Below are positions 37,572 to 48,704 of a DNA stretch of 48,896 nt, in pieces. The translations under genes were made by a program, and so were the position numbers. Position 1 is the first letter of the stretch. Each line of letters starts with the position of its first letter. Source of the DNA: an uncultured Gammaproteobacteria bacterium (GTDB taxonomy: Bacteria > Pseudomonadota > Gammaproteobacteria > SZUA-229); NCBI GenBank assembly GCA_913065105.1, contig CAJXZZ010000011.1:1-48896 (forward strand), given 5' to 3'. The notes beneath the pieces are model-generated. The model was not told the DNA's origin, made no database searches, and worked only from the letters and a program-made list of their open reading frames with translations.

Positions 37572-38483
37572 TTATTCATATTTCACACCCAGGACCTTAT
37601 GACTTTCTGTAAGGATGTAATCCAGAAATGTTCGGGCGACCAGAGAGAGTTTTCGGCCTTTTAAATGTACCGCGTACCACCGTCGTTTCAGAGGAAAACC
37701 TTCCACATCGAGTACCGTCAATTTGTTTACATCCCGTTCTAACTGCACACTGTGCAATGATAGAACAGCTATTCCCAAACCCGCCATTACAGCCTGCTTA
37801 AGCGCTTCACTACTGCCCAGCTCCATATAAGGCTCAATTTTAACGCCATGCTCTTTCATTAACTGATCGAACACATACCTTGTTCCGGAACCAGATTCGC
37901 GAATTAAAAATCGTTGTTTGGCCAATTCCTCTATGGTGATATTTTTTTTATTCGCCAATGGGTGATCAGCAGGGGCAACGATACCTAGAATATTGTTGAG
38001 AAAAGGATATGCTTCAAGATTTTCATCATCGGGTATCTGTCCCATGATGACAAAATCATCCTCATTATTCATTAATCGTTCAATGACACGTGCACGGTTG
38101 GTAAACTTTAATTTTGGCTCTACGTCGGGGTACTGTTGTAAAAATGCACCTAATAAATTGGGTAAAAAATATTTTGCGGTGGTGACCACGGACATCTGCA
38201 GGGCACCTTTTACCGTGCCTTTTAGTTCTTCTATTGAATTTTTTAAAGTATCGACTCTATTTAGAATATCAAGACTGGCTTCATACATCGTTTTTCCAGC
38301 GGCTGTTGGGAAGGTTTTTTTACCAATCTGCTCAAAAAGAGGTAACCCCACCTGTTCCTCCAGACGCTTAATCTGAATAGAAACAGCAGGTTGCGTTATA
38401 AATAGCTCTTCAGCAGCTCGCGTATAACCGCCCAGTCGAGAGACAGATTCAAAGATTCTTAATTGCTGTAATGTTAGATGCAT
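37572..38483 (-). CDS. cbbR: LysR-type transcriptional regulator, CbbR
   Basis: CbbR controls the Calvin-cycle genes in response to metabolites such as RuBP or NADPH. From ATG 38483 it has 303 residues. The winged HTH is LQQLRIFESVSRLGGYTRAA followed by EELFITQPAVSIQIKRLEEQVG; the effector domain shows ILGIVAPADHPLANKK and LIRESGSGTRYVFDQLM, typical of CbbR. The frame extends 81 bases further upstream, but the extension is not conserved. It is divergent from cbbL, the usual place. Confidence 0.93.
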   Translation of the reverse strand: MHLTLQQLRIFESVSRLGGYTRAAEELFITQPAVSIQIKRLEEQVGLPLFEQIGKKTFPTAAGKTMYEASLDILNRVDTLKNSIEELKGTVKGALQMSVVTTAKYFLPNLLGAFLQQYPDVEPKLKFTNRARVIERLMNNEDDFVIMGQIPDDENLEAYPFLNNILGIVAPADHPLANKKNITIEELAKQRFLIRESGSGTRYVFDQLMKEHGVKIEPYMELGSSEALKQAVMAGLGIAVLSLHSVQLERDVNKLTVLDVEGFPLKRRWYAVHLKGRKLSLVARTFLDYILTESHKVLGVKYE

Positions 38484-38684
38484 AACCAGACCCATAAACA
38501 AATGTATATGTAATTTATAACAAAAAGTAATTTTTATAAATAGTAAATCGGCGTTATATTTCATTCCATCCTAATTGGTGGCGTCAGAAGACTGTCGTGC
38601 TTAGGACTAAATATTTAACTTTGAAAATGCAACTAGAAGATTATTTTTAAAGTTTATCGATAAGTAACGTATGAGGAATACAAC
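38484..38684 (+). promoter_or_regulatory. cbbR-cbbL intergenic control region
   Basis: The 201-base AT-rich spacer has two direct copies of GTAATTT (38510-38516 and 38527-38533) each followed by a TTATAA box (38515-38520 and 38534-38539), a pattern fitting a LysR-type operator (T-N11-A family) near cbbR. No confident -35/-10 pair for cbbL was found. A strong ribosome site GAGGAA ends the region 8 bases before the cbbL ATG. Confidence 0.5.
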
Positions 38685-40103
38685 ATGGCAAAGACCTATA
38701 GCGCGGGCGTAAAAGAATACCGCGAAACGTACTGGACACCAGATTACACTGTTAAAGATACAGATCTTCTGGCTTGTTTCAAAATTACACCACAAGACGG
38801 TGTACCTCGCGAAGAAGTTGCTGCTGCGGTAGCAGCTGAATCTTCAACGGGTACCTGGACTACAGTTTGGACTGACCTTTTAACTGACCTTGATTACTAC
38901 AAGGGCCGTTGTTACGCAATTGAAGACGTTCCAGGTGATGATACTTGTTTCTACGCATTTGTTGCTTACCCTATCGATCTATTCGAAGAAGGTTCTGTTG
39001 TAAACGTACTGACTTCTTTAGTTGGTAACGTATTCGGCTTTAAAGCACTACGTGCACTTCGTTTAGAAGATATCCGTTTCCCAATTGCTTATGTAATGAC
39101 TTGTAATGGACCACCACAAGGTATCCAGGTTGAACGTGACATTCTAAACAAATACGGTCGTCCTCTACTAGGTTGTACTATTAAACCTAAACTGGGTCTT
39201 TCTGCTAAAAACTACGGTCGTGCCTGTTACGAAGGTTTACGCGGCGGTCTGGATTTCACTAAAGATGACGAAAACGTAAACTCACAGCCATTCATGCGCT
39301 GGCGTCACCGTTTCGACTTCGTTATGGAAGCTATCCATAAAGCTGAAGCTGAAACAGGTGAGCGTAAAGGTCATTACTTAAACGTAACTGCTCCTACTGC
39401 TGACGAAATGATGCGTCGTGCTGAGTACGCTAAAGAAATTGGCGCACCTATCATCATGCATGACTACTTAACGGGTGGTCTTTCTGCTAACACTCAGTTG
39501 GCTCAATGGTGTCAGAACAACGGTATGCTGTTACACATTCATCGTGCTATGCATGCTGTACTTGACCGCAACCCGCACCACGGTATTCATTTCCGCGTAC
39601 TTACTAAAGTTCTTCGTCTGTCAGGTGGTGATCACCTTCACTCAGGTACAGTTGTTGGTAAATTGGAAGGCGATCGTGACGCAACGTTGGGTTGGATCGA
39701 CATCATGCGTGATTCATACATCAAAGAAGATCGTTCACGCGGTATCTTCTTCGACCAGGACTGGGGCGCAATGCCAGGTGTTATCCCTGTCGCGTCTGGT
39801 GGTATCCACGTATGGCACATGCCTGCGCTGGTTAGCATCTTCGGCGATGATTCTTGTCTGCAGTTCGGTGGTGGTACATTAGGTCACCCCTGGGGTAACG
39901 CTGCAGGCGCGGCTGCTAACCGTGTTGCGGTTGAAGCTTGTGTTGAAGCACGTAACTCTGGTGTTGAGCTTGAGAAAGAAGGTAAGGACATTCTTACTAA
40001 AGCGGCTGCTCATAGCCCAGAACTTAAGATTGCTATGGAAACCTGGAAAGAGATCAAATTTGAATTTGATACGGTTGACAAGATTGACGTAGCCCACAAA
40101 TAA
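38685..40103 (+). CDS. cbbL: RuBisCO large subunit, form IA
   Basis: CbbL fixes CO2 onto RuBP. The 472-residue protein is form I, green-like type [20 protein letters not shown] at the start; Lys167 and Lys169 in [15 protein letters not shown]; carbamylated Lys193 with Asp195 and Glu196 in [15 protein letters not shown]; loop 6 in [12 protein letters not shown]; and [12 protein letters not shown]. All key catalytic residues are present. The following cbbS, cbbQ and cbbO fit a non-carboxysomal IAq operon. Codon use favours GGT, CGT and GTT, as in highly expressed genes. Confidence 0.98.
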
Positions 40104-40237: not shown

Positions 40238-40597
40238 ATGAGTGATGTACAAGATTACAATTCAAGCTTAAGCGATGCTGCTGCAAGCCGTAAATATGAA
40301 ACTTTTTCTTACCTGCCTGCTTTGAGTGTTGAGTCAACTCGCGCTCAGATTCAATATATCGTTGATAAAGGCTGGAATCCAGGTATCGAACACACAGAAC
40401 CAGAAAATGCGGTTAGCAATTACTGGTACATGTGGAAACTACCTTTGTTTGGTGAAACCGATGTTGATGTCATTCTGGCTGAACTTGAAAACTGCCATAA
40501 AGCGCATCCAAATAACCATGTACGTCTGTTAGGTTTTGATAACTTTAAGCAGTCTGCTGGTACAGCATTGGTTGTTTTCCGTGGCGTTTCTGTTTAA
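40238..40597 (+). CDS. cbbS: RuBisCO small subunit, form I
   Basis: CbbS completes the L8S8 RuBisCO. The 119-residue protein shows [45 protein letters not shown] and [20 protein letters not shown], the form IA pattern. TTTGGAGT before the start serves as ribosome site. It is separated from cbbL by 134 bases with an inverted repeat and followed by a terminator. Confidence 0.97.
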
Positions 40598-40711: not shown

Positions 40712-41023
40712 ATGGCACGTCCAGATAAGTACGTTGGAGTTCAAAACGAAGTTAATGGCGGCATGACCACGATTGGGAAAATCATTCGTGATGCCTGGGT
40801 CTTTGGCTTAATTGAAGAAAACGAAACTTGTGAAGGTTGGAATTTTGCGGGTGTTGATGCCTTATTGGATAAGGTTAATAAAGAATGGGATAAATATGGT
40901 TGTCAGGTGAGTAGCTTACCAGCAGAGCTATTTGAAAAGCACCAAAGAATTCATGGCAAGGCAATGGAAGATGCTCGCGCAAGTGGATGGTGTGGAGAAG
41001 TAGAAACTGAGGACGAGAAATAA
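40712..41023 (+). CDS. Small conserved-looking protein between cbbS and cbbQ
   Basis: This 103-residue acidic protein begins MARPDKYVGVQNEVNGGMTT and has IGKIIRDAWVFGLIEENETC, then CEGWNFAG, VNKEWDKYG and AELFEKHQRIH, ending in a charged tail. I recognise no domain. It has a GAGAG ribosome site (CAGAGAGTTTTATATG) and follows the cbbS terminator; TATAAT at 40673-40678 with weak -35 may provide a promoter. Its place inside the RuBisCO activase gene row points to a link with RuBisCO or CbbQO, but the role is unknown. Confidence 0.75.
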   Translation: MARPDKYVGVQNEVNGGMTTIGKIIRDAWVFGLIEENETCEGWNFAGVDALLDKVNKEWDKYGCQVSSLPAELFEKHQRIHGKAMEDARASGWCGEVETEDEK

Positions 41024-41130
41024 TACGTCGCAGTAATAATTTTTATTTTTGTAGCCTGTTGTTAGCGTTAATGGCGAATATGCTGCAAGAACAATTTAAA
41101 CATAGATCAAACGAAGAAGAGAGAGTGACC

Positions 41131-41952
41131 ATGTCTGTTACTGAAAACGTTGTAGATGCCGAGCAATATCTAATCAAAGATGAACCTTACTATGAACCAG
41201 TGGGTAAAGAGCTAGCGTTATACGAATCTGCTTATGACGTTCGTATGCCGATGATGATCAAGGGACCTACCGGTTGCGGAAAGTCACGTTTTGTTGAACA
41301 CATGGCCTGGAAACTTGGCAAACCATTGATTACGGTTGCCTGTAATGAAGATATGACCGCATCTGATCTGGTAGGCCGTTTTCTGTTAGATAAGGATGGC
41401 ACCAAATGGCAGGATGGTCCTTTGACCACCGCAGCTCGTATGGGTGCTATCTGTTACCTCGACGAGATAGTTGAAGCACGACAGGACACCACTGTTGTTA
41501 TTCACCCGCTAACCGATCATCGTCGCAGCCTGCCGTTAGATAAAAAGGGTGAGTTAATACAGGCGCACCCTGATTTTCAGTTAGTCATCTCTTATAACCC
41601 TGGTTATCAGAGTTTGATGAAAGACTTAAAACAATCGACCAAACAACGTTTCGGTGCGATGGACTTTGATTATCCAGAAGAAAAAATTGAAATTAATATC
41701 GTTGCCAAAGAATCTGGAGTCGATCCAGTAATCGCTGAAAAACTAGTGCATATCGCACATCGTGCTCGCAACCTGAAAGGCCATGGTTTAGATGAAGGTA
41801 TTTCTACACGTCTGCTGGTCTATGCCGGCCAGCTTATCGCTAAAGGTGTACCGCCACTAGATGCCTGCAGCATGACAATGGTGACACCATTAACTGATGA
41901 CCCCGACATGCGCGATACACTTAACGCTGCGGTAGAAACATTTTTTGGCTAA
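41131..41952 (+). CDS. cbbQ: RuBisCO activase AAA+ subunit CbbQ
   Basis: CbbQ is a MoxR-type AAA+ ATPase that with CbbO removes inhibitory sugar phosphates from form IA RuBisCO. From ATG 41131 (AGAGAG ribosome site) it has 273 residues. Walker A is GPTGCGKS at residues 45-52, Walker B is CYLDEIVEARQ with Asp111-Glu112, and the DKKGELIQAHPDFQLVISYNP segment with sensor 1 is present. The extra TTG-started segment from 41059 is not conserved. Confidence 0.96.
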   Translation: MSVTENVVDAEQYLIKDEPYYEPVGKELALYESAYDVRMPMMIKGPTGCGKSRFVEHMAWKLGKPLITVACNEDMTASDLVGRFLLDKDGTKWQDGPLTTAARMGAICYLDEIVEARQDTTVVIHPLTDHRRSLPLDKKGELIQAHPDFQLVISYNPGYQSLMKDLKQSTKQRFGAMDFDYPEEKIEINIVAKESGVDPVIAEKLVHIAHRARNLKGHGLDEGISTRLLVYAGQLIAKGVPPLDACSMTMVTPLTDDPDMRDTLNAAVETFFG

Positions 41953-41998: not shown

Positions 41999-44353
41999 AT
42001 GTCGATGAAGCTCGAAGATTACGAAGATTTACTTGCAGATGTAGCGCCTGAGATTCGTGATGTGCTTGAAAGTACATTTCAAGAAGCATCACGCGTGATG
42101 TCTCCTACGGGTTTGCAAACGTATATGGATGGCGCAAAAACTTTGTGTAATCTTGGACGAGGCTCGGGTGTTGTTATCTCTTATCTACAGGAAATGCCAT
42201 TAGTCGCAAAGGAATGTGGTGAAGATGTGGTCGGCGATTGCTTAACAGCGGCGATGAAACTTTCTTCAATGACTTCTGCTGAAGTGGTCACTCTGTTATT
42301 TAGCAGTATGCCAACAGCAGCACGTAACCTGGGTGATGCCGAACTCTTCCGTGGATATCTGACGCTCATTCATCAGCTTGCATCAACCGCTTCGCGCGGT
42401 GTGCGCCCGATGCTTAATCATATCGATGAATTATTATCTAAACTAACACTCAGTGGTTTACGCCGTTGGGCTCAATTTGGTTCTCAGGCTTATCGTCGAG
42501 ATTTTAATAATCTAACGGCTTACTTTAATCTTGAGTCCGCTGACAGTCGCGCGGTATTACAAAAAGAACGCCGTGGTATCCTGTTCATAAAAACCCAGCG
42601 AAAATTAAATTTTTATCTGCGTGCCTTATGGGGGCGAGATTTTTTCTTGCGCCCGACCGGTGCCGACTTCGCTGATTTTCGTCCCTTTATCGAACATCGT
42701 ATATTGCATCTGCCTGATGCACTTGATGATTGTGGTGACATCCCGGGGCTAGAGCTTTATCGTGCAACGGCTGCACACATGGCTTCACACATGATGTACT
42801 CGACTGCGCCAATTTCTGCTGAGGGGCTTAGCCCGGCACAGATGTTTTTTATCGGGCTGGTGGAAGATGCGCGTATCGAGTATAAAGCCATCAATGAATT
42901 TCCTGGTCTAAAGAAACTCTGGCGTTCACTGATGGATGTACCCCGTGAAGATAAGGGGGAAGAAAAAGCTGAACATCCAACCATGCCCTTGCTAGAAAAA
43001 TTTTCTATCATGCTACTGGATTCGACAGTGAACTCGGACGACAAAGAGCTGAATGCACTCGCGAAAAAGTTTCATGATGGCATCTTCGATAATCAGGATA
43101 ACAACAATTTCTGCTGGCATCTTGGTCTCGATGTTTTTAATTTATTCTCATCGCGTAAAGAAGTACCTAGCCTGCGTATCCTCGAACGCATCGATATCCC
43201 TTACCGTGACGACAATCGTTATGTCTGGGAGTTTGAAGAATTTAGCTGGGAAGTCGAGTATGAATATATGCCCGCTAGTCAGCGCCAGGTAAGGCGTGAG
43301 GTTAGCGTTATCGAAATGGCCAATGAAGTCGATTGTGAATTAGCCGGTGATGACGCACAGGAAATCTGGACCTGTTCAACCAATATGCGTCCTTATGAGG
43401 ATGACCTGACTGATGAACAGGTTAGCTTCAATGATATGTGGGGCAAAGAACCGGTTTCCGACCCCTACCATTACCAGGAATGGGATTATCAGATACAGCT
43501 GCACCGTCCTGACTGGGTATCTGTTTATGAACGTCGTCAACCGCGTGGTTTTGTCGAAGATATTCAGGCGATCATCGATGAATACAGACCAGTGGCGCAT
43601 CGTATAAGACAGATCATCGATCTATTAACGCCGGAAGGCGTGCAACGTGTGCGTAATATGGAAGATGGTGACGAAGTCGATATCAATGCCGCTATCGATG
43701 CCATGATTGCGATTCGCATGGGTGAGCAGCCTAACACCCGCATCACCATGCGCAACGTATTAAAGACTAGAGACCTGTCAGTCGTACTGTTACTGGACCT
43801 GTCCGAATCGACTAATGAACCGATGAATGGTTCAGAAAAAACCGTATTACAACTGACGCGTGAAGCTGCCACTCTGGTTGCTACTGCAATCGAAGGTATT
43901 GGTGATCCTTTTGCTATTCATGGCTTTGCCTCCGACGGGCGTCATGATGTGCAATATTATCGTTTTAAAGATTTTAGTCAGCACTTCGATGATGAGGCAA
44001 AATCTCGGCTTGCAGGCATGAAAGGCGGACTATCAACGCGTATGGGTGGTGCGTTACGTCATGCGGGTCAGCACCTGTTAAAGCAGCAGGAAAAACGCAA
44101 GTTAGTATTATTAGTCACTGACGGTGAACCTGCCGACATCGATGAACGTGACCCACAGCATCTGCGCCACGATACTAAAAAAGCCGTGGAAGAACTCTAT
44201 AGTACAGGCGTACTTACGTATTGTTTAACGTTAGACCCCAATGCCGATGATTATGTGAAACGAATCTTTGGCGCTAATAACTACACGATTATTGACCATG
44301 TCGATAAGTTACCAGAGCAGTTGCCCACTTTGTTTGCGAGCCTGACGGCATAA
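41999..44353 (+). CDS. cbbO: RuBisCO activase adaptor CbbO (VWA domain)
   Basis: CbbO carries the substrate-recognition part of the CbbQO activase. The 784-residue protein has a long helical N-terminal domain and a C-terminal VWA domain with an intact MIDAS motif DLSES (Asp600, Ser602, Ser604), which holds the metal that contacts RuBisCO. A negatively charged central part is visible around residues 380-520. It is the fourth gene of the block, 46 bases after cbbQ and 24 bases before the aldolase gene. Confidence 0.96.
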   Translation: MSMKLEDYEDLLADVAPEIRDVLESTFQEASRVMSPTGLQTYMDGAKTLCNLGRGSGVVISYLQEMPLVAKECGEDVVGDCLTAAMKLSSMTSAEVVTLLFSSMPTAARNLGDAELFRGYLTLIHQLASTASRGVRPMLNHIDELLSKLTLSGLRRWAQFGSQAYRRDFNNLTAYFNLESADSRAVLQKERRGILFIKTQRKLNFYLRALWGRDFFLRPTGADFADFRPFIEHRILHLPDALDDCGDIPGLELYRATAAHMASHMMYSTAPISAEGLSPAQMFFIGLVEDARIEYKAINEFPGLKKLWRSLMDVPREDKGEEKAEHPTMPLLEKFSIMLLDSTVNSDDKELNALAKKFHDGIFDNQDNNNFCWHLGLDVFNLFSSRKEVPSLRILERIDIPYRDDNRYVWEFEEFSWEVEYEYMPASQRQVRREVSVIEMANEVDCELAGDDAQEIWTCSTNMRPYEDDLTDEQVSFNDMWGKEPVSDPYHYQEWDYQIQLHRPDWVSVYERRQPRGFVEDIQAIIDEYRPVAHRIRQIIDLLTPEGVQRVRNMEDGDEVDINAAIDAMIAIRMGEQPNTRITMRNVLKTRDLSVVLLLDLSESTNEPMNGSEKTVLQLTREAATLVATAIEGIGDPFAIHGFASDGRHDVQYYRFKDFSQHFDDEAKSRLAGMKGGLSTRMGGALRHAGQHLLKQQEKRKLVLLVTDGEPADIDERDPQHLRHDTKKAVEELYSTGVLTYCLTLDPNADDYVKRIFGANNYTIIDHVDKLPEQLPTLFASLTA

Positions 44354-44377
44354 TGCGCCAGATATTAGGAGTAACCC

Positions 44378-45556
44378 ATGCCTTTGGTTAATATGCGCGA
44401 CATGCTGTATCACGCCTACGACAATAATTATGCGGTAGGTGCTTTTGATCTAGTCAGCCTGGACTTTTTAGAAGCCGTTATCGACGCTGCAGAAAGCTGT
44501 CGCTCTGCCGTTATCCTAAGTATTGCAGAGCCTCATTTTGCCTATTACGATTTTGAGCTTTTTCTGCCCGCCGTCGAAGCCGCAGCAAAACGCGCCTCTG
44601 TTCCTGTCGCCATTCAACTGGATCATGGCAGCAGCTTTGAGTCAGCGGTAAAAGCGATTAACCTGGGATGCAATGGTGTCATGCTCGACGTATCAGACCA
44701 GAGCTTTTCTGACAACATAGATCAAACCCGGGCGGTTGCCGAGATGGCACATCAATGTGGTGTTTCGGTGGTGGGCGAACTCGGTTATGTTGCGGGCAAA
44801 GAAGGTGAAGGTGCTGAGCAACACCCAGGAGAAACTACTTTCACCCTTCCCTCTGAAGCTAAAGCCTATGTAGAAAGGACCGGTGTTGACTTCCTGGCGG
44901 TGTCTATCGGCACGGTACAGGGTCGAATGAACGGTCGCGCAAAACTTGATTACGTACGTCTCAAGCAACTCAATCAGGCGGTCAATATTCCATTGGTTAT
45001 TCATGGTGGCAGCGGTCTGAATGAAGATCAGTTTCATAAATTGACATCCAATGGCGTTGCCAAGATTGATTATTACACAGCACTTTCAGATGTCGCAGCA
45101 AAAGCGATGCGAAAACGCAGTAAGGAAAACCCTAACGGCAGTTTTACCGACCTTAAAAAAGATGTAAAAGAAGCCATCGGTTTAGAAGTTCAACGCTGTC
45201 TTCGTCAGTGGGGTAGTGCCGGACGCGCAGCGGAAGTACTTGAACGATGCGAACCCTGGCTATCCGTTGAACATCTTATTGTTCATAATGTAAGTGCGCA
45301 GCCTGGCCAGTCAGTCGACAGTCTAATGTCTGAAGGCAAACGAATACTTTCCCAGATACCGGGTGTGCGAGAAGTATTTACTGGTGAGGCGATGAAAGAA
45401 AATAGTAAATATAGTTTCTGCTGGTCAGTACGGTTTACACATAAAGCTGCGCTTGATAGCTTTCGAGAACATCAGGGTTTTGATGCTTTTTTAAAGAAAC
45501 AGTTTAACTCTAACGTCAGCGACCTGGTCTGTATCGATTATCAGGAAAAAACATAG
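44378..45556 (+). CDS. Class II aldolase with C-terminal Dabb domain
   Basis: Residues 1-290 are a class II (zinc) aldolase barrel: AVGAFDLVSLDFLEAVIDAA, IQLDHGSSFESAV with Asp82 and His83, GELGYVAG with Glu134, and PLVIHGGSGL with His209. At the usual second zinc His (GT-HG in relatives) it has Gln181 in IGTVQGRMNG. From about residue 297 a second domain follows: VEHLIVHNVS, then ILSQIPGVREVFTGEA, FCWSVRFTHKAALDSFREHQ and DLVCIDYQ, which fits the stress-responsive A/B barrel (Dabb) family. Calvin-cycle aldolases cleave FBP and SBP; the missing zinc ligand makes activity uncertain. Last gene of the cbb block. Confidence 0.85.
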   Translation: MPLVNMRDMLYHAYDNNYAVGAFDLVSLDFLEAVIDAAESCRSAVILSIAEPHFAYYDFELFLPAVEAAAKRASVPVAIQLDHGSSFESAVKAINLGCNGVMLDVSDQSFSDNIDQTRAVAEMAHQCGVSVVGELGYVAGKEGEGAEQHPGETTFTLPSEAKAYVERTGVDFLAVSIGTVQGRMNGRAKLDYVRLKQLNQAVNIPLVIHGGSGLNEDQFHKLTSNGVAKIDYYTALSDVAAKAMRKRSKENPNGSFTDLKKDVKEAIGLEVQRCLRQWGSAGRAAEVLERCEPWLSVEHLIVHNVSAQPGQSVDSLMSEGKRILSQIPGVREVFTGEAMKENSKYSFCWSVRFTHKAALDSFREHQGFDAFLKKQFNSNVSDLVCIDYQEKT

Positions 45557-45557
45557 T

Positions 45558-46043
45558 TCAGTCACTTTCAGATTCAGGCCTCAACGGCAGGATACTGACT
45601 TTACAGTCTGTGTTCAATGAATCACGATGACGCTGATCGATCAGTAGCATCGACTGATAGAATTCACTACTCAGTCTATTTTGAATTTCAGACATATCCT
45701 CACCGTAAAAGATAACCCGGCAATCCATATTCTGCGTTAAACCCTCACGTTGATTAGCATTTATTAACGGATGCCAGGAAACCCTGATCAGTCGACCGCC
45801 TTCATCACCGCGAGTCGCATAAGCCAGACTATCGACAAACCAGAAGGCATTTTTTTCTATTATTGCAAGATATTGCAAAGAACGTATCGGAATAAACAGA
45901 TGGCTCGACTGGCTTCGATTAAGCAGAACATGCGCTAGATTATAGGTTTGCGACAATAACCGAGTTGTCTGGCAAAAAAACTCATCAGGTGTAAAAAATG
46001 ATTGCGTATCATGAGTTGTCATACCATAAATTGTAGCATTCAC
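45558..46043 (-). CDS. Hypothetical protein
   Basis: This 161-residue soluble protein has no motif I recognise. It begins at GTG 46043 or, slightly shorter, at ATG 46022 (MTTHDTQSFFTPDEFFCQTT). The middle shows SLQYLAIIEKNAFWFVDSLA and ISWHP-like SWHPLINANQRE; it ends in a Pro-rich tail. It is convergent with the aldolase gene with a one-base gap and follows cti on the same strand by about 75 bases, so it may be in the cti transcription unit. Confidence 0.6.
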   Translation of the reverse strand: MNATIYGMTTHDTQSFFTPDEFFCQTTRLLSQTYNLAHVLLNRSQSSHLFIPIRSLQYLAIIEKNAFWFVDSLAYATRGDEGGRLIRVSWHPLINANQREGLTQNMDCRVIFYGEDMSEIQNRLSSEFYQSMLLIDQRHRDSLNTDCKVSILPLRPESESD

Positions 46044-46117: not shown

Positions 46118-48541
46118 TTACCGGTTATCATATCGATTTAGGTCAAATAGACCTGATAATACCGGCTGCTCACGTGCATACTGTTTTTTAAACCAGTCCG
46201 CATGTTGCCAGAACTCTTCACTGGTCCGGCGCTGACCATAATGCGCAACAAACACTTCATACTGCTGACGATTTTCGAGTCCATTATATTCTTCAACAAA
46301 ACGTTCAATATCATCCAGCGCTACCACATAAAAGAAATTAGGATAAGAGCCTTCCAACCGCCTGACAATTGTTTGCGTATCTTCTTTATAATCACGCTGA
46401 TCTATCGCTTTCTCATCGGCGAACAAGGAAGTAACATTTGTATAGGCCTTATTGCTGATCATGGTATAGGCGAGATCATCTTCCGGTTTACCTCCCATCT
46501 TCACGCGAACAAAAGCAAGGTCTGGCAAAATCTGGATGACTATCCCGTCCATTTTTGTCGCTCGCTGCATTGCTTTGTCGACGCGCAACACATTCTTGTT
46601 CGCCTTAGGTTTGCATTTATCAGATGTGCAGCGATTAATGTAGTCGCCATCACCTGCCATTGGACCAAGATACTGCTCAAGATGCTGGTACAGTTCTAGC
46701 TGAGGATCATCTGTTTGATAACCGAGAACATACTCTTTGTTTAACCAGGTCATTGCATCTCCCTCGTCACCCTTGTCACCCTTACGTAGACCCTGGTACC
46801 AGCCATCACGAATGGCTGTTCGTTTGTCTGCGGGCAGAAAAGCCAGGAACTCGTCCTCGCCTTCGGTGCGCAGAAAATCCATGTACAGACGGGTATTTAA
46901 CTGGTGACCAAGATTGCCATAAACATCAAAGCCAGCCACCAGTAAATAGTGGATCCGCTCCAGTATCGAGTAATCGATTACCCAGGCAGTTTCCGGGTAA
47001 TCACCGATAAACCCATAGTTAACCGAAGCACTATCGAAATGCCTGAATATAGTTAAAGCAGCATTTGGGTTTTTGCCGTCACCATCCCAGATATAACTCA
47101 TGGCATCATCAAGATTGACTGGTTCGAAATCTTTCGAAGTTTTGAGTTTCATTTCAATATATTTCTGGAACAGCTTCTTGTAGTAACGATTGACGCTGAA
47201 CAGCTTGAAGGTATCTTCCAGCTCAGCGGGTGATGCCAGGTATTCTGCAGTGGCGTCCAGTTCCGCATCATCCAGTGACATAATATCGGCTTCAGGATCA
47301 AAGAACACCACCCAGAACTGGTCTTCTATAACACTCAATGCTATCTGACCACGACAGACAGGGCCCTTGATAAAACCTTCGATAAAGAACCGTGATTCGT
47401 CCAGCAAAAATTTATAACGTGATCTGACCGGGATAGCAGCAAAGGCCTTTATCGGGTTTGATGCGATTGATGGCTCATAAGACGGCAGACTCGCCACTTC
47501 GTATTCTGCATCGATAAACAGTTCCTTGTAACGCTGCATACGTTTATCTGAGAGATCGTAAACCATATGCGTCTTGGCAACGATACTGCCCTGATGACGC
47601 ACCAGTCGATAGTAGACAGAGCCCGCCGGGGCTCCATAAGGGCGCCGCGTTGGAATTATATCAACGGGTTTACCCGGTGCTGTGCTCGAACGTACCAGGC
47701 GATAGAATTCGCGATTATCGGTGCCATCAAAATGCAGATGCGCCTGGAACAGGTGTTCGTACAGGTAACGAGCCACCAGCCTTGTTTTGTTATCACTGGC
47801 TTTGTTGCTGCTTCCCTTATTACCGCTGCCATTGAGAAAGGCTTCCCATTGTTTTATCTGCTTTGCTGCAACTGTTGATGGTGCTTCATCTTCTGGCATA
47901 GGTGTGCCCTGCGCCAGCCAGTGCACCAGCGTGGTGTATTCATTTTTATCCAGGCCTGGCATCGCATAAGGCATACCTCCCTTGGGATGTTTGGCGGCGT
48001 ATTTGTCAAACTCATCCAGTGTCGGACATGTCTGTTCACGATCGAGGCTTACATCAAAATCATCACTGAGCATGCCTGTTTGTGCCTGTGGGTATAACCG
48101 TTTTTGACGCAGCATGCGATACATAACCGAGTTTTCAAGATTTCTAATCTTATTCGGTTCGCCCTCATTCAACACCGTTTCGAATCCCTTCTGCCGCCAT
48201 TCTTCAGTAGACATCGCATCGATAAATAAACGTGTCGGCTCATCGGCTGTTAGCCGCTCTGCATTATAGACTTTCTTTTTATTGGCACCACGATGAATAC
48301 CTTCAGGAGATGTCAGTTTTAACTGACAGGGGGCATCGTAGCAACCGTGACAGACCACGCAACGGTTTTCGAGAATCGGCCGCACCTTATCTTTATAAGA
48401 TATGTCTTCCTTTGGCAGTGTGTATAGCAGATCATTTTCGATGATTGCCTGCTCAGCAGTAATGGATTTTTCTGGCGATGAACAGGCAGATAACAATAGC
48501 AACAGCAAAATAATGCTGATCAATGTTGTCACTTGTCTCAT
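46118..48541 (-). CDS. cti: Fatty acid cis/trans isomerase
   Basis: Cti converts cis unsaturated fatty acids of membrane lipids to trans forms in place, a rapid answer to solvents and heat. From ATG 48541 it has 807 residues and starts with a lipoprotein signal (IILLLLLLSACSS, lipid Cys20); the frame also allows a longer start at 48625. A haem-c site C-V-V-C-H sits near residues 61-65 in ENRCVVCHGCYDAPCQ. The family blocks TRRPYGAPAGSVYYRLVRHQ, FDPEADIMSLD and DYSILERIHYLLVAGFDVYG follow. Confidence 0.95.
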   Translation of the reverse strand: MRQVTTLISIILLLLLLSACSSPEKSITAEQAIIENDLLYTLPKEDISYKDKVRPILENRCVVCHGCYDAPCQLKLTSPEGIHRGANKKKVYNAERLTADEPTRLFIDAMSTEEWRQKGFETVLNEGEPNKIRNLENSVMYRMLRQKRLYPQAQTGMLSDDFDVSLDREQTCPTLDEFDKYAAKHPKGGMPYAMPGLDKNEYTTLVHWLAQGTPMPEDEAPSTVAAKQIKQWEAFLNGSGNKGSSNKASDNKTRLVARYLYEHLFQAHLHFDGTDNREFYRLVRSSTAPGKPVDIIPTRRPYGAPAGSVYYRLVRHQGSIVAKTHMVYDLSDKRMQRYKELFIDAEYEVASLPSYEPSIASNPIKAFAAIPVRSRYKFLLDESRFFIEGFIKGPVCRGQIALSVIEDQFWVVFFDPEADIMSLDDAELDATAEYLASPAELEDTFKLFSVNRYYKKLFQKYIEMKLKTSKDFEPVNLDDAMSYIWDGDGKNPNAALTIFRHFDSASVNYGFIGDYPETAWVIDYSILERIHYLLVAGFDVYGNLGHQLNTRLYMDFLRTEGEDEFLAFLPADKRTAIRDGWYQGLRKGDKGDEGDAMTWLNKEYVLGYQTDDPQLELYQHLEQYLGPMAGDGDYINRCTSDKCKPKANKNVLRVDKAMQRATKMDGIVIQILPDLAFVRVKMGGKPEDDLAYTMISNKAYTNVTSLFADEKAIDQRDYKEDTQTIVRRLEGSYPNFFYVVALDDIERFVEEYNGLENRQQYEVFVAHYGQRRTSEEFWQHADWFKKQYAREQPVLSGLFDLNRYDNR

Positions 48542-48704
48542 TGGTGTTTCAACAGACACATAGCTATGCCTTGCCGTTAATGTATTGTTATCAAAATTCA
48601 GTACTGACTCAGTTATGTGTTTCATAAAATACTCGTGTAAATTTATATATGTTCTGCAGTTTTAATTGTACTCGTAAGATAATGGATCAACAAAAAGATA
48701 ATTT

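Follow-up and report, generated by a model that had tools for sequence, protein, structure and literature searches.

Class II aldolases and Dabb proteins are the closest described counterparts of the protein considered here. Dabb domains of other proteins form dimers, and in the class II aldolase (FBA) of Helicobacter pylori His180 is, reportedly according to a 2018 JBC paper, the general base for C3-C4 cleavage. The H180Q variant of that enzyme has been crystallised with FBP and DHAP (5ud1-5ud4). In Escherichia coli, the zinc ligands of the aldolase are His110, His226, His264 and Glu174 (PMC11194214), and the FbaA variant H226A retains wild-type-like F6P 4-epimerisation, with its zinc proposed to sit on H110, H264 and E175 (PMC5434028). 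As for Rubisco, activase genes are described as removing inhibitory sugar phosphates from the enzyme (PMC8718961). One such inhibitor, xylulose-1,5-bisphosphate (XuBP), is prepared in the laboratory from DHAP and glycolaldehyde phosphate in an aldol addition (PMC10212915).

An aldolase-Dabb fusion in a Rubisco operon

The window, by which we mean the whole 48,896-nucleotide stretch of DNA that was analysed, carries at 44378..45556 (+) a gene with an ATG start whose 392-aa product is a class II ketose-bisphosphate-aldolase barrel joined to a C-terminal Dabb domain. The barrel (residues 1-290; 44378..45247, +) was recognised by PF01116, which covers residues 4-283 with an E-value of 1.2e-76 and 258.3 bits against a gathering score of 25.5, as well as by structural alignment of an AlphaFold2 model. 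This single-chain model, built with a 60-sequence alignment, reached a pLDDT of 91 for the fusion, and its barrel matched class II aldolases at VIA Z 35-40. The Dabb domain (residues 295-389; 45260..45544, +) was matched by PF07876 over residues 317-389 (E 1e-7; 33.0 bits against a cut-off of 25), and a profile of the fusion family extended the match to residues 295-388, with E-values of 9e-10 for the Dabb structure 3bde and 4e-5 for olivetolic acid cyclase. In the AlphaFold2 model this domain has the order beta-alpha-beta-beta-alpha-alpha-beta; folded alone from its single sequence (pLDDT 73), it led Foldseek to Dabb folds. Both Pfam domains were matched in all 21 relatives scanned. The aldolase-like barrel over residues 1-290 and the C-terminal Dabb fold that the preliminary description had read from the sequence are thus borne out by profile and structure searches. 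Among NCBIfam names for the barrel, every match fell under its own cut-off.

The gene is a Rubisco-operon accessory. Divergent from cbbL lies a CbbR-like LysR regulator (37572..38564, -; PF03466 and PF00126, with CbbR as the best NCBIfam match, below cut-off). It is followed on the forward strand by cbbL for the form I Rubisco large subunit (38685..40103; profile matches), cbbS for the small subunit (40238..40597; Pfam), a gene for a 103-aa protein without a Pfam match (40712..41023), cbbQ for the MoxR-type AAA+ activase subunit (41059..41952; PF08406 and PF07728), cbbO for the VWA-domain activase adaptor (41999..44353; PF00092 and context) and the fusion. A gap of 24 bp separates cbbO from the fusion on the same strand; it holds an AGGAG motif resembling a ribosome-binding site (44367..44371, +), and a simple scan of its + strand returned no promoter- or terminator-like site. 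Relatives of the 103-aa protein, an unnamed Rubisco-operon protein, occur in 22 collected loci, as a rule in the stretch that separates cbbS from cbbQ in green-type operons. Convergent to the fusion lies a gene for a 161-aa protein (45558..46043, -) that is remotely related (hhalign E 3.8e-6, probability 87%) to a family of about 120 aa without a Pfam match, here called c7. This family is present in 18 collected loci, in most of them with the activase gene on one side and the fusion on the other (for example L040:6333-6701 and L014:281-658). Beyond it, at 46118-48625 (-), is coded an 835-aa protein with a CVVCHGCYDAPCQL motif, which we take to resemble fatty acid cis/trans isomerase.

The fusion is far from confined to this genome. 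Its profile matched 52 genomes in a class-wide draw of 369 gammaproteobacterial genomes, which is a draw rather than a census, with one genome per species and many MAGs; full-length matches were also found outside the class, in four further genomes of the phylum. A Rubisco large chain was present in 176 of the 369 genomes, namely in 50 of the 52 with a fusion vs 126 of the 317 others (Fisher p 6.5e-16, shared ancestry ignored), a co-occurrence that is a strong lead and not a corrected statistic. Within loci, whose visible context is bounded by contig ends, the fusion often lies directly 3' of Rubisco-activase genes of all types seen: green-type cbbLS-QO, red-type cbbLS-X, where it follows cbbX (L041, L046, L112, L114, L125, L137, L138 and L140), and form II cbbM-QO, where it stands after or between cbbM, cbbQ and cbbO (L105 and L128). 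The distinct, autotrophy-linked aldolase suspected in the preliminary description has thus found its support in genome counts and operon linkage alike. Coverage of 80% of the window protein was not reached by any plasmid record, and no paper on an aldolase-Dabb fusion was found in a literature search with little coverage of subscription journals. The fusion points to a widespread gene family, apparently not described before, that accompanies Rubisco and every type of activase seen here. Some copies (L139, 1052-9580; L141, L152 and L156) lie near genes for the inorganic-carbon transporter DabA, NuoL/Mrp-like DabB-type proteins and BMC shell proteins, and a P-II protein gene is found near the L156 copy.

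Active-site substitutions in the Gln-type clade

The preliminary description had singled out a glutamine, Gln181 in GTVQG (44918..44920, +), in place of a zinc-ligand histidine. Alignment upheld this: the residue falls exactly on His180 of H. pylori FBA and on His226 of the E. coli enzyme, whose ligands His110, His226, His264 and Glu174 correspond to His83, Gln181, His209 and Glu134 of the window protein. Of the three zinc-ligand histidines, H83 and H209 are therefore present and the second is Gln. The change is accompanied by others that had not been described, namely His80 to Gln (AIQLDHG vs AIHLDHG; 44615..44617, +), the loss of Glu132, here Val (VVGELG vs VEGELG; 44771..44773, +), and Asn231 to Asp (KIDYYT vs KINYYT) in the sub-clade of the window copy. 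Position 80 is Gln in 16/16 Q-clade and His in 45/45 His-type sequences, the latter set having been picked for His at 80, 181 and 209; position 132 is Val, Ile or Thr in 16/16 Q-type sequences and Glu in all 45 of the comparison set. Residues 216, 223, 256, 260 and 264 also differ systematically between the two sets. Kept in the window protein are Asp82 and His83 (44621..44626, +), the catalytic Asp and a zinc-ligand His, and the third zinc-ligand histidine, His209 (45002..45004, +); Asp82, His83, Glu134 and His209 are kept across the Q clade, as is Asp104 except in L132. Glu142, taken as the enediolate-protonating Glu, is present in the window copy and lost in L006, L039 and L057.

Among 70 fusion sequences gathered from gammaproteobacterial genomes, most keep His80, Glu132 and His181. 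In a tree built without columns 80, 82, 83, 132, 181, 209 and 231, the 16 Q-type sequences and L153, which has Arg181, formed a single clade of 17 rows with support 100/99, and Gln80 and Gln181 are fixed in all 16 Q-type sequences, which come from several families. Barrel dN/dS was 0.02-0.08 in Q-clade pairs vs 0.04-0.15 in sampled His-type pairs, all hand-picked and several with saturated dS, such that constraint in the Q clade is no weaker than in the sampled His-type pairs; in nearly every pair the Dabb domain evolves faster than the barrel. A loss of constraint in the Q clade was considered and rejected on these values.

Survey of the loci answered the question, raised at the outset, of how often the fusion follows cbbO: it lies 3' of cbbO in 15 of the 16 Q-type loci, often with a c7 gene between and, in the window, at a distance of 24 bp, and this is the operon linkage expected of a component of the Rubisco/CbbQO activase. 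The exception is L132, whose divergent CbbR-like neighbour is 53 bp away. Counting any Rubisco or activase neighbour, the linkage was 15/16 for Q-type vs 22/48 for His-type copies (Fisher p 0.0009, relatedness ignored).

Several separate fusion copies (L143, L152, L156, L052 and L136) carry other altered residues at catalytic positions, a pattern that suggests repeated loss of catalysis within the family. In one genome (L054 7731-8593; G028:C19) the Q-type fusion is a pseudogene interrupted by several stops, next to a cbb operon that is intact in all other respects, and the fusion is therefore dispensable there.

Possible roles of the fusion

The altered metal, the lost catalysis and the regulatory or scaffold role put forward in the preliminary description are all conceivable. 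Sequence data favour a protein in which ligand binding would be kept and cleavage lost, without deciding between the readings below. Our preferred reading, held tentatively as the likeliest single one although not one that we would call probable, is that the Q-type protein binds sugar bisphosphates but can no longer split them by retro-aldol cleavage, and that it works for Rubisco and CbbQO as a sensor, buffer or scaffold. On the published H. pylori mechanism, H181Q would take away a zinc ligand that doubles as the general base for C3-C4 cleavage; since Gln181 equals the H180Q variant, the Q-type protein would be expected to bind its substrate and not cleave it, with a ketose bisphosphate held intact as FBP and DHAP are in the H180Q crystals. 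Because a whole lineage keeps the His-to-Gln changes, the protein probably binds rather than cuts Rubisco-type sugar phosphates. The barrel could then act beside Rubisco and CbbQO in any of the three capacities named, while the Dabb domain might supply a surface for oligomerisation or partner binding. Where a His-type relative occupies this operon slot, it has probably remained an active ketose-bisphosphate aldolase, with a sugar phosphate related to Rubisco as its substrate. Given that a ketose-bisphosphate aldolase adjoins activases of several types, a handling of inhibitory sugar phosphates is suggested. A more specific proposal, which we consider rather unlikely as it stands, is that this pseudo-aldolase-Dabb protein belongs to the Rubisco-CbbQO activase system as an additional component, where it would capture or sense the inhibitory ketose bisphosphates that Rubisco releases, and that it derives from a catalytic aldolase of the same slot via two active-site His-to-Gln changes.

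Several points speak against the preferred reading: some catalysis could remain, as 4-epimerisation does in E. coli H226A; zinc might still be bound via H83, H209 and E134; Glu142, which a pure binder would presumably not need, is kept in the window copy; and the pseudogene marks the fusion as dispensable in one genome. The main rival is an altered enzyme that would hold its metal via His83, His209 and Glu134, possibly with Gln181, and carry out another sugar-phosphate reaction, be it epimerisation, isomerisation or slow retro-aldol cleavage. We regard this as a real possibility, though we would not expect it to be the case. In its favour, E. coli FbaA H226A, altered at the very residue that is Gln181 here, keeps F6P 4-epimerisation (PMC5434028); D82, H83, E134 and H209 are conserved in the Q clade as in a working site, and purifying selection is strong. 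Against it, the clade has replaced two more active-site residues, His80 and Glu132; Asn231 has become Asp in the sub-clade of the window copy; and three members have lost Glu142.

A different view of the whole family, His-type included, is that it cleaves XuBP, a Rubisco misfire product, to DHAP and glycolaldehyde phosphate next to the activase that sets it free; the Gln-type would then trap the same ligand. Such a cleavage is chemically reasonable because the laboratory synthesis of XuBP (PMC10212915) is an aldol addition of the same two compounds, and the fusion adjoins both QO- and X-type activase genes and, once, a CbbY-like HAD gene. Relatives of the HAD protein in the CbbY position of Cupriavidus necator (42-56% identity; putative CbbY) are, however, found in 38/39 fusion genomes vs 37/40 others, so that the fusion does not replace CbbY, and we consider this view of the family improbable. 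The neighbouring HAD gene is seen in L105 (G247:C79), where it follows cbbM-cbbQ-cbbO-fusion after about 27 bp.

It is very improbable that the window protein is an ordinary Calvin-cycle FBP/SBP aldolase (CbbA) carrying a neutral change, as its PF01116 match and its position in the operon could suggest. Three PF01116 proteins are coded in the window genome: the window fusion, a second aldolase-Dabb fusion on contig C89 with an intact GTVHG (57% identical to the window protein) and, on contig C23, a 345-aa FBA coded after a pyruvate-kinase-like ORF. The C23 protein is 70% identical to C. necator CbbA vs 29% for the window fusion, and we therefore assign the role of Calvin-cycle aldolase to C23; the name 'Calvin-cycle aldolase' given to the fusion in the preliminary description is not supported, and a CbbA identity for it was rejected. 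In addition, the window protein misses the TIGR00167 cut-off for ketose-bisphosphate aldolases (201.4 vs 215.6 bits), which a His-type paralogue, L038, passes with 221.4 bits. A separate FBA of about 350 aa is present in each of 16 other genomes, which were selected because they carry a Q-type or Q-clade copy and which include that of the pseudogene. Finally, a decaying remnant without function, for which the pseudogene in G028 and the divergent copies with broken sites (L143, L152, L156 and L052) might be cited, is scarcely credible, as barrel dN/dS of 0.02-0.08 indicates that the Q-clade fusion is not decaying and Gln80 and Gln181 are fixed in 16/16 sequences from several families.

Comparison with known systems

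The fusion family is found in about one in seven of the sampled gammaproteobacterial genomes, almost only where Rubisco is present. Its Q-type clade resembles a natural copy of a variant made by crystallographers, and because that variant has been crystallised, a test of binding without cleavage is within reach. The proposed role of the Q-type protein, if true, would add to our understanding of how bacteria manage inhibitory sugar phosphates and could be relevant to Rubisco engineering.

With known class II aldolases the fusion shares the barrel fold (VIA Z 35-38, 33-39% identity) together with Asp82, His83, Glu134 and His209, and it differs from them in having Gln at the second zinc His and at His80, in the loss of Glu132, in the added Dabb domain and in its place in a Rubisco-activase operon. 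The H. pylori H180Q enzyme (5ud1-5ud4) has the same His-to-Gln change at the aligned position; that substitution was made in the laboratory, whereas Gln181 occurs in nature, where a clade has fixed it together with His80Gln and the loss of Glu132. The C-terminal domain is the one known from 3bde (Mll5499), olivetolic acid cyclase and At3g17210, which are stand-alone proteins, while here it is joined to an aldolase. CbbY, the xylulose-1,5-bisphosphate phosphatase, is likewise a sugar-phosphate-handling protein coded beside Rubisco activase genes (PMC10212915), but it is a HAD phosphatase of unrelated fold and coexists with the fusion. CbbA of C. necator and of Afipia is, like the fusion, a class II aldolase coded near Rubisco genes; unlike the fusion, the C. 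necator enzyme has 345 aa and lacks a Dabb domain, and the two are 29% identical.
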